Of a stretch of DNA of 64,000 nt, positions 42,943-45,929 are shown piece by piece. Made by a program: the position numbers and the translations under genes. This DNA comes from Frankiales bacterium (GTDB lineage: Bacteria > Actinomycetota > Actinomycetes > Mycobacteriales > Jatrophihabitantaceae), in NCBI GenBank assembly GCA_025966315.1, contig JAOPUZ010000042.1, forward strand, positions 1-64,000. Direction: 5' to 3'. The notes under the pieces were generated by a model, which was given only the letters and a program-made list of their open reading frames with translations, had not been told where the DNA came from and searched no databases. The first letter of the stretch is position 1. Every line of letters begins with the position of its first letter.

Positions 42943-42979
42943 TGCAACATCTGGCATCAGTGTGATGCCAGATGTTGCA
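42943..42979. promoter_or_regulatory. 37-bp near-perfect palindrome upstream of the hydroxy-acid oxidase
   Basis: The arms tgcaacatctggcatca (42943-42959) and tgatgccagatgttgca (42963-42979) are exact inverted copies of 17 bp with a 3-base centre. It lies in the divergent intergenic region, 98 bases from the oxidase start and 80 from the CMD relic start. Such symmetry without coding use suggests an operator for a dimeric or tetrameric regulator. No regulator gene is adjacent. Confidence 0.75.
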
Positions 42980-43058
42980 CGATTCGGCAGAACGTGCGGT
43001 GTCACATCTCGTGGATTGCCGGTGTCTTGATGTCGACACCAACCCACGAGGAGAACAG

Positions 43059-43601
43059 ATGAGCACCGCCCGAATCCCAAGAGCAGAGATCACCGGCCTT
43101 TATGGCGCCTTGGTGAAAAGGTTCAGCAAGAAGCTGCTCGGCCGCGTGCCGGAGCCGCTGGGCGTGTATTGGCACAACCGCGCCGTGCTCAAGGCCACCA
43201 TGGGCATCGGCGCCAAGGCGCAGAAATGGGACGCCAGTGACCTCGGCCTGAAGTCGTTCGCCCACCTGGCCGTCGCAGCGCAGATCGGCTGCAACTGGGC
43301 CCCTCGCCCCTGACGCGGTGCTCATCGCCGACGGTGGTGGCGTGGTGGCTGCGGTCCGGCAGCCGGTCGTGGGCGCGAGGAAGATCGTCAATCTGCTCGG
43401 CGGGTTCGCGCGGGTCGCCCCGGCCGCCGTGGTCGAGCCGGTCCTGCTCAACGGTGCGCCTGGTGCCCGCGTCCTGCTCAACGGTGCCGTCGACACCGTG
43501 ATCGGTTTCGCCTTCGAGGCCGGGCGAACAGCAGGGTCTTCGCGGTGCGCAACCCCGACAAGCTGCACCGGCTGAGCGAAACGACCCCGCTCAGCCGTTA
43601 G
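43059..43601 (+). pseudogene. Deletion fusion: carboxymuconolactone-decarboxylase-like start joined to SigJ SnoaL end
   Basis: The first 80 codons (MSTARIPRAEITGLYGALVK, LGRVPEPLGVYWHNRAVLKA) are the N-terminal part of an AhpD/CMD-family protein; an acgaggagaacag leader precedes it. At about 43298, just after GCNW where the catalytic CxxC helix should begin, the sequence jumps into another frame reading LAPDAVLIADGGGVVAAVRQ and IVNLLGGFARVAPAAVVEPV, the SnoaL end of a SigJ-type sigma factor. A second shift near 43530 is needed to reach VFAVRNPDKLHRLSETTPLS and stop at 43601. A single large deletion removed the CMD 3' end and the sigma 5' end. Neither product can work. Confidence 0.8.
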
Positions 43602-44860
43602 CTGTCGACGACGCTGGCTGTGGGCGCGACCGTGGAGACTGGCGCGCCGGCGCGTCGTCGGGCGAGGCGTCCGCTGAGGTAATAGCCGGCGGCCATGATG
43701 GCAATCACGACGATGGTTTCGGTGATGCCCCAGGCCCAGGTGGCGCCGCTTACGTCTTTGGTGGCGATCTTGGGGAGTTTGCCGGTGCCGGCGGTGGCGT
43801 GTTCAGCGGCGTTGGCTTGGAAGGCTTGGTTACGGGCGGAGCCGCGGAGGAACGGAGCGACGAACAGCACCGTTAGGCCGAGCAGGAATTCGACGGCAAT
43901 GATGGCGCGGAACTCGCGGACGAGCAGGACCCGCAGTGGCCGTTGGTCACCGGCCGCCCGGAGGGCTTCGATGCGCGGGTGGAGCCAGAACTGGTTGGCG
44001 ATGCCGAGCAGCAGCAGGGTGCCGAAGATGAGGATTTTCACTCCGAGGACCCGGCCGTACATGGTGGTGAACAGCTGCGAGGGTCCGTCCACGTGCTCCC
44101 AGTAGAGGAACAATCCGGACAAGGTGATCGCGGCGACGCAGCTCATCGCGACCGCCGAGAAGCGGCGGATCGTCGGGGACCAGAACGCGCCTCGATCCGC
44201 CGCACCAACGGCTCCGGGGGCGGCGAGCAGCAGTAGGCCGGCCAGTCCACCGATCCAGATGGCCCCGCCGAACAGGTGCAGCATCCACATCACCGTCTTG
44301 AAGCTGGTGCGCGGCCAATCGGTTGGTACCGCCGCGGGAAATTTAGTGGTGCCGAGCGCGACCGCCCCGGCGGCCAGGCCGCCGCCAAGAAGGCAGTTCC
44401 TGGCCCGTCCGGCCGCGCCGACGCGGCTGACGAGCGGGGCGATCAGCGCTGCTCCGACGAGGGAGAAGGTGACCTCCAGGCCGGCGAGACGGCCGGCGTT
44501 GCTCCCGTCGTAGAGCAAGTTCCAGGCCGCGCGGTAGTCGTAACCGCCGGAGTCGGAGGCGTTGTGGGCGAGTTCGGTGAGGACGGCCGGTACCGCCAGC
44601 AGCCCGAGCACGATCGCGAGCCCGGCGAGCCGAGTGGTGACGATGGTCAGCGTGCCCGTGCCGATGCGTCGGGCGGGCGGCCCGGCCGACAGCAGGGACA
44701 GCGCGATGAGTCCGACGAACCCCATCAGAGTCACCCAGGTGGTCCAGGCGATGGCACGGTCCTCGAACGGTCCGAGTGGGGTCGAGGGAGCCGAGGCCGC
44801 GGACAGCACGGCGGTGGACAGCAAACTGGGAAGGGGCACAACAACCACCTTGATGAGCAC
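43598..44860 (-). CDS. copD: CopD-family copper-resistance membrane protein
   Basis: This is a 420-residue polytopic membrane protein with the CopD domain. Eight to ten helices are visible; signature regions are WMLHLFGGAIWIGGLAGLLL near residues 190-209, SGLFLYWEHVDGPSQLFTTM and GRVLGVKILIFGTLLLLGIA then NQFWLHPRIEAL. His residues in WMLHLFGG and NQFWLHPR are the likely copper-binding ones. It lacks a fused CopC domain. A GTG start is used. An iron-box-like palindrome sits 18 bases upstream, which is unusual for copD. Its stop overlaps the end of the CMD::SigJ relic. Confidence 0.88.
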   Translation of the reverse strand: MLIKVVVVPLPSLLSTAVLSAASAPSTPLGPFEDRAIAWTTWVTLMGFVGLIALSLLSAGPPARRIGTGTLTIVTTRLAGLAIVLGLLAVPAVLTELAHNASDSGGYDYRAAWNLLYDGSNAGRLAGLEVTFSLVGAALIAPLVSRVGAAGRARNCLLGGGLAAGAVALGTTKFPAAVPTDWPRTSFKTVMWMLHLFGGAIWIGGLAGLLLLAAPGAVGAADRGAFWSPTIRRFSAVAMSCVAAITLSGLFLYWEHVDGPSQLFTTMYGRVLGVKILIFGTLLLLGIANQFWLHPRIEALRAAGDQRPLRVLLVREFRAIIAVEFLLGLTVLFVAPFLRGSARNQAFQANAAEHATAGTGKLPKIATKDVSGATWAWGITETIVVIAIMAAGYYLSGRLARRRAGAPVSTVAPTASVVDS

Positions 44861-44878: not shown

Positions 44879-44897
44879 TTAGGTTAGCCATACCTAA
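44879..44897 (-). promoter_or_regulatory. IdeR/DtxR-type iron box upstream of copD
   Basis: The 19-mer ttaggttagccatacctaa matches the IdeR/DtxR consensus (ttaggttaggctaacctaa) at 16 of 19 positions, with both TTAGGT/ACCTAA arms exact. It is 18 bases upstream of the GTG start of copD, where it would block transcription. This predicts repression of copD under iron sufficiency. Confidence 0.75.
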
Positions 44898-44996
44898 CTT
44901 CGAGGGTCAAGGTGAGAGAGGTAATACGCAGACGGGTGAACCAAAGCGGCTGCCGCCGTGTACGGGCCGCCAGCCTCAGCGACGCGCCGTGATGCC

Positions 44997-45929
44997 TCAG
45001 AACGTGAGGACCAGACGTCCCCTGGTGCCGCCCGCTTCTAGCCGGCGGTGCGCGGAAGCGGCATCCTCGGCTGAATACGTCGCGGCAATCCGCAGGGTCA
45101 CCTCGCCGTCTTCGACCTGCTGCCGCAGCCGATCGAGTGCCGCGTGGTTGGTCGCGTAATCCCTGACCCAGGTCTGATGCAGTGCGATCTCGCGCTCGGT
45201 CGGTCCGGCCCATCCACGAATCACGGCCAGACCGCCCGCGTCGCGAATTGCCGGCAGCGTCATATCCGTCTGCACCGCGCCGTCGGCGAGGCCGTCCACA
45301 CCAGCCGGAACGATCTCCCGAATGCGGTCAGCGACGTCTGGCCCCCGGCGCACCACCGCGTCCGCCCCAAGACTCCGGACGAGCTCCTCATCAGCTTCTG
45401 ACGCATCGGCGACTACGTAGAGGCCGTCGGCCTTGGCGAGTTGGACGACGTACCCCCCGTAAGCCCCGGCGGCGCCGGTCACGGCTATCGACTGGCCTTT
45501 CTTGAGATTCAACTGATCCAGAGACAGGCGCGCGGTCAAGCCGTTCATCGGCAGACTCGCGGCGGACACCAGATCGCTGCCGGCCGGAATCCGAGCCACC
45601 GATTGCGCCGGGACAACGACGTATTCGGCGTACGCTCCGCCGCGCCCGGTGGCGGGTAGCAAGATCGCCATGACTTTTTCGCCGATCTCCCAATCGACTC
45701 CGGCGCCTACCTCGTCAATGACGCCGGCAGCGTCCATACCCGGTATGTGCGGACTCGAACTCCGCAGACCGGCACCGTAGAGACCCGCCCGCAGGCCGGT
45801 GTCGGTGGGATTCACCGCGGCGGCTGCGACCTTGATCCGAACCTCGCCCGAGCCGGCATGCGGCTCGGCCAGCTCGAACACCTGCAGGACCTCTGGGCCA
45901 CCGAATTCAGTCAACCCGACGGCTCTCAT
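44997..45929 (-). CDS. NADP-dependent quinone-oxidoreductase-like protein (MDR family)
   Basis: This is a 310-residue zinc-free medium-chain dehydrogenase/reductase. The N-terminal GroES-like part reads MRAVGLTEFGGPEVLQVFEL and AAAVNPTDTGLRAG; the nucleotide motif is AVTGAAGAYGGYVVQLAKAD near residues 148-167. No structural zinc cysteines are present. It reduces quinones or alkenals with NADPH. Its start overlaps the stop of the upstream LLM gene by 4 bases, making it the third gene of a coupled operon. The end has no clear hairpin. Confidence 0.88.
   Translation of the reverse strand: MRAVGLTEFGGPEVLQVFELAEPHAGSGEVRIKVAAAAVNPTDTGLRAGLYGAGLRSSSPHIPGMDAAGVIDEVGAGVDWEIGEKVMAILLPATGRGGAYAEYVVVPAQSVARIPAGSDLVSAASLPMNGLTARLSLDQLNLKKGQSIAVTGAAGAYGGYVVQLAKADGLYVVADASEADEELVRSLGADAVVRRGPDVADRIREIVPAGVDGLADGAVQTDMTLPAIRDAGGLAVIRGWAGPTEREIALHQTWVRDYATNHAALDRLRQQVEDGEVTLRIAATYSAEDAASAHRRLEAGGTRGRLVLTF

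Follow-up and report, generated by a model that had tools for sequence, protein, structure and literature searches.

In the analyzed DNA stretch of 64,000 nucleotides (the window), the copD gene, which encodes a CopD-family membrane protein, is preceded by an iron box of the IdeR/DtxR type, and, as judged from the sequence, control of this gene by iron via IdeR is very probable. The genes repressed by IdeR and DtxR are largely iron-uptake genes. The link to iron proposed in the first-pass annotation receives strong support from the conservation of the box, its position within the promoter, the DNA-reading residues of the IdeR protein of this organism, and the other box-bearing genes of the genome. 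The site would be an IdeR operator inside the copD promoter. With iron in plentiful supply, Fe-loaded IdeR would cover the -35 and -10 elements and the space between them, and copD would be switched off; upon iron scarcity, IdeR would leave, allowing the production of copD along with efeUOB. The product of copD would then most likely deliver copper to the membrane, or across it, for use in copper-dependent processes under iron starvation, for which EfeO, the cupredoxin domain-containing component of the EfeUOB importer with its own iron box, would be the most specific candidate client. In our estimation, this complete scenario, comprising an IdeR-repressed copD promoter, copper supply by CopD in iron starvation, and EfeO as a candidate client, is evenly poised. 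The features on which it is based are listed in Table 1.

Table 1. Features of the copD locus, with coordinates referring to the window
Feature	Position	Strand	Basis
IdeR/DtxR-type iron box, palindrome TTAGGTTAGCCATACCTAA, gene-strand reading TTAGGTATGGCTAACCTAA	44879..44897	.	consensus match and conservation
copD, 413 amino acids from likely GTG start; CopD PF05425 (Pfam)	43598..44839	-	homologue starts and Pfam
Shine-Dalgarno-like AAGGTGG ahead of GTG 44839	44845..44851	-	read from sequence
-35-like hexamer TTGACC	44905..44910	-	18 nt before TAACCT
Candidate -10 hexamer TAACCT, within the box	44881..44886	-	inferred from spacing

The 19-mer TTAGGTTAGCCATACCTAA is found exactly at the place where a 16/19 match to the IdeR/DtxR consensus had been claimed, and the match is borne out; overall, the observation proves stronger than it had been put forward. 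In comparison with TTAGGTTAGGCTAACCTAA, there are three mismatches on the + strand (16/19) and two on the - strand, which is the strand of the gene (17/19); in a control with the shuffled window, no match was obtained in 100 shuffles. The consensus, TTAGGTTAGSCTAACCTAA, is printed in the searched text of PMC8464063. When up to three mismatches to TWAGGTWAGSCTWACCTWA are allowed, five places are found in the whole genome (4.56 Mb, 77 contigs), compared with two when the control pattern, i.e., the reversed sequence, is used. With a single mismatch, the copD box is the joint best of the genome, tied with one other.

The open frame of copD extends over positions 43598-44860 of the - strand and comprises 420 amino acids when counted from the first GTG codon at 44860. 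In many homologues (e.g., L038, L041, L042, and L043), however, the ATG codon matches the position of a GTG at 44839 (VPLPS...), which in the window is preceded by the AAGGTGG motif. Therefore, GTG 44839 is the likely start of copD, from which the box is 39 nt away; the distance of 18 bases given in the first-pass annotation counts to the first GTG and is corrected accordingly. The box is located in a gap of 136 nt between this first GTG and the stop codon, at 44997, of the upstream gene. Since that gene is encoded on the same strand and ends before the gap, only copD could be served by the box in the gene layout as read. Service to a neighbouring gene was rejected on these grounds and because the neighbours vary among loci. 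The flanking genes of copD in the window are an alcohol-dehydrogenase-like gene and an FMN dehydrogenase gene, neither of them a copper gene, and copD is probably a single-gene unit.

On the gene strand, the predicted promoter reads TTGACC-18 nt-TAACCT, with the box spanning most of the spacer plus the -10 element. A TTGA hexamer at a distance of 17-19 nt from TAACCT is present in 23 of 32 boxed rows, or, after subtraction of three duplicates, in 20 of 29, leaving nine without it. From the arrangement of these motifs in the DNA, we infer an iron-repressed promoter.

Scanning of GTDB contigs with the copD protein yielded 29 orthologous loci, which belong to Streptomycetaceae, Streptosporangiaceae, Frankiaceae, and Catenulisporaceae, to one record labelled Saccharothrix, and to one Ilumatobacteraceae assembly. 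In 26 of them, a few being close sister species, the 150 nt that precede the match include a box of at least 14/19. The remaining 298,108 bases of those loci contain one site of this quality, and such a site occurs in 17 of 20,000 150-mers generated by an order-1 Markov model. Conservation of the box, which had been suggested as a check of the idea, is thus evident. The box is also found in the genomes G025 and G612; G628, G697, G737, and G794 are the genomes of L056, L051, L045, and L046, respectively (same contig coordinates), and were not recounted. In G712, copD lies at a contig end and is broken into two pieces on opposite strands, for which reason its promoter was left out of the judgement. 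According to a simple gene caller, no gene family besides copD is common to more than five of the 30 compared loci; with its neighbours changing from locus to locus, copD is the gene to which the box belongs. The gene itself seems to be rare and patchy, with at least one of 396 genomes (the own one) in a phylum-wide scan using the alignment (E ≤ 1e-40) and at least seven of 394 genomes, including that of the window, having a copD match in a class-wide scan using the protein, with up to four candidates per genome scored in either scan.

The orthologous loci devoid of the box are L049, L051, and L052, with L049 also lacking the first approximately 48 residues. Three changes on the tree are required to account for these absences, and for at least two of them the requirement follows from well-supported branches. 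Two of the box-less loci, L049 (1093-3210) and L051 (1865-4361), adjoin arsenic-type genes, the translations of which were read as ArsR-like, aquaglyceroporin-like, low-molecular-weight phosphatase ArsC-like, and glyoxalase-like; these copD copies may have exchanged iron control for another context.

For comparison, 28 control loci were available, comprising the second CopD of the genome itself and 27 weaker CopD matches from relatives. Among these, only L009 (copD of 38% identity) has a site of 14/19 or better, at the 5′ end of copD and just before a candidate ATG, and the 3.3-kb locus of the second CopD (C3) contains no site of at least 13/19. With one of 28 control loci positive, the idea of the iron box being a general feature of CopD genes was rejected. 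In G005, which is from the same genus (53% identity), tandem 14/19 boxes precede the first start of a CopC-like/CopD frame by 10 nt, with an acetyltransferase-like gene, oriented divergently, at a distance of 59 nt; because the gap is common to both, the target of these boxes is ambiguous. At the distant CopD loci L008 (1353-1386) and L009 (2591-2609), a divergent gene, which was read as acetyltransferase-like, shares the iron box region.

Two genes of the DtxR family are present in the genome. The one on contig C49 (85501-86223; L071, 1502-2224) encodes an IdeR-type regulator with an E value of 2.9e-77 to IdeR of S. erythraea (7b1v), and its reading helix, QSGPTVSQTVARMERDGL, is identical to that of the crystallised S. 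erythraea protein; this regulator would be the one to bind the copD box. The second gene adjoins an NRAMP-like gene and is, by reading, probably MntR. Further boxes of the genome are located upstream of efeU-efeO-efeB (at 43 nt; efeB identified by reading), of a ferritin gene (at 57 nt), and, with three mismatches, of a fatty acid desaturase gene (at 7 nt; region 2915-3999 of L070; G000, C54). The box that ties with that of copD lies directly before an open reading frame of 116 amino acids (region 4013-4379 of L067; G000, C29) and overlaps the end of an upstream Pyridox_ox_2 gene. The 116-amino acid protein, for which a Pfam search gave no match, is a candidate iron-regulon protein.

The copD product matches Pfam CopD (PF05425) with 73.2 bits against a cut-off of 32.1, over residues 230-336 of the 420-amino acid frame. 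The NCBIfam equivalog copper_CopD (NF033808) gives 81.7 bits, which is below the cut-off of 195 bits, and the protein is therefore assigned to the CopD superfamily and not to this equivalog. Pfam finds CopD alone, without a CopC or a YtkA domain, a CopC partner is neither fused nor among the flanking genes, and the 30 loci have no conserved neighbour; the translated frame thus reads as that of a stand-alone CopD. A same-genus relative, L008, has a CopC-like fusion scoring 22.8 bits, just under the cut-off of 23.3. YcnJ of Bacillus subtilis (CopC-CopD-YtkA) and the YebZ/PcoD-type CopD of Escherichia coli have the CopD membrane domain and a conserved transmembrane histidine in common with the present protein; unlike in those systems, CopD occurs alone here and its flanks are not ycnI/copC. 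His188, His249, and His287 are invariant in all 25 aligned proteins, and His188 aligns with His154 of E. coli YebZ. According to the searched text of PMC13344008, the CopD-domain histidine H295 of YcnJ is required under copper limitation, its YebZ counterpart is said to be important for copper uptake, and ycnJ is under the copper-linked repressor YcnK, not under an iron regulator. His188 would correspond to H295 and to its counterpart in YebZ. Copper entry, which the first-pass annotation proposed to be linked with iron status, would be a plausible function of CopD.

The main rival explanation is that CopD is misnamed and that the members of this subfamily carry out redox chemistry or transport of iron itself in the membrane, for instance as a quinol-linked ferric or siderophore reductase. 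It would be in line with the prevalence of iron-uptake genes among those repressed by IdeR or DtxR (Table 1 of PMC13001254), with the absence of copper genes from the flanks of copD, and with the three invariant histidines. Further, the AlphaFold model of CopD (mean pLDDT 74.1), in which long helices befitting a polytopic membrane protein are predicted, resembles membrane redox subunits above the level of unrelated rows. The values are a Z of 13.4 at an rmsd of 4.7 over 267 aligned residues for the A/B chains of cytochrome bd (5doq_A) and a Z of 10.6 at an rmsd of 4.7 over 210 aligned residues for polysulfide reductase C (2vpw_C), compared with about 8 for unrelated rows, although helical bundles may reach values of this size without kinship. 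From the resemblance to cytochrome bd, a redox role of the protein is therefore conceivable. However, Foldseek with the same model gave no match at E ≤ 0.001, a cytochrome bd chain being the best row (E 0.014), and for those CopD relatives for which data are available, copper is the metal acted on. A search by sequence found no solved structure at E ≤ 1. Altogether, we consider a role of this protein in the handling of iron itself somewhat unlikely.

Returning to the supply of copper, high-affinity iron uptake by Fet3-Ftr1 of yeast is copper-dependent. In the genome of the window, EfeU is an FTR1 protein and EfeO has a cupredoxin domain, so that the two systems are alike in the idea of high-affinity iron uptake needing copper and in the FTR1 component; EfeO, however, is not a multicopper oxidase, and the analogy would have to extend to a putative copper need of EfeUOB. 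FTR1 was found in all 32 copD genomes searched (class sample, 229 of 394) and the M75 (EfeO-type) domain in all 37 (class sample, 171 of 394), the latter set including four same-genome duplicates and G053, which has a distant CopD only; both searches covered copD genomes other than that of L052. EfeU and EfeO-type domains occur together in 32 of 32 copD genomes tested. Since many genomes without a copD match also have these genes (FTR1, 223 of 387; M75, 165 of 387; by subtraction), the co-occurrence is confounded by kinship. Among the seven copD-match genomes of the class sample, six are positive for FTR1 and M75, and G712, with its split copD, is in neither list. The most specific form of the scenario, in which IdeR would co-induce the FTR1-type EfeUOB and a dedicated CopD feeding copper to the cupredoxin domain of EfeO, as a bacterial parallel, with other components, to the copper-needing iron uptake of yeast, is to be regarded as unlikely.

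Copper import might also be raised at low iron in the course of metal sparing, with copper enzymes replacing iron enzymes and with no special tie to EfeUOB. A precedent is the Cu-Zn superoxide dismutase of Corynebacterium diphtheriae, which is iron- and DtxR-repressed (PMC13001254, Table 1). However, the Cu-Zn superoxide dismutase domain is found in only four of 32 copD genomes and in none of the proteins of the window's genome, so that this enzyme was rejected as a client of CopD; the metal-sparing explanation is decidedly unlikely. A functionless box, arisen by chance or left over as a relict, is highly improbable, since its absence from three of the 29 ortholog loci is set against its presence in 26 despite differing neighbours and its overlap with the promoter.

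The arrangement proposed for copD is like that of the known iron-repressed actinobacterial promoters controlled by IdeR, DtxR, or DmdR1 with regard to the 19-bp palindrome, the (here predicted) overlap with the promoter, the IdeR regulator, and the iron genes under the same boxes; it is unlike them in that the regulated gene codes for a CopD-family protein. The word CopD is absent from the main text of the IdeR/DtxR/DmdR1 regulon papers searched. DtxR of C. diphtheriae likewise ties iron status to copper genes, namely a PCu(A)C-CopC operon and the Cu-Zn superoxide dismutase gene. Unlike the repression predicted for copD, the PCu(A)C-CopC operon is iron- and DtxR-induced there, and the searched text makes no mention of a CopD (PMC13001254). 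In a paper on metals in Frankia, CopD and YcnJ are listed, and the term "iron box" is absent from the text as searched (PMC4531530). Literature searches, which covered titles and text passages but not supplements (e.g., the list of DmdR1 sites in PMC12161575), brought up no description of an iron box ahead of copD.

A CopD subfamily would thereby be added to the IdeR regulon, of which it was not found to be part in the searched text of the regulon papers. The iron switch common to copD and efeUOB would provide a testable entry point to the question of copper at the EfeO cupredoxin domain, and annotations as "copper resistance protein D" in actinobacteria may conceal an iron-starvation protein. 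A hitherto unexplored connection of iron uptake with copper is suggested by the many soil bacteria in which relatives of copD carry the box.

As a separate observation, positions 42972-43575 of the window (+ strand) contain two short adjacent open reading frames, the first without a Pfam match, which resemble remnants of larger genes and which we take to be decarboxylase-like and sigma-factor-tail-like.
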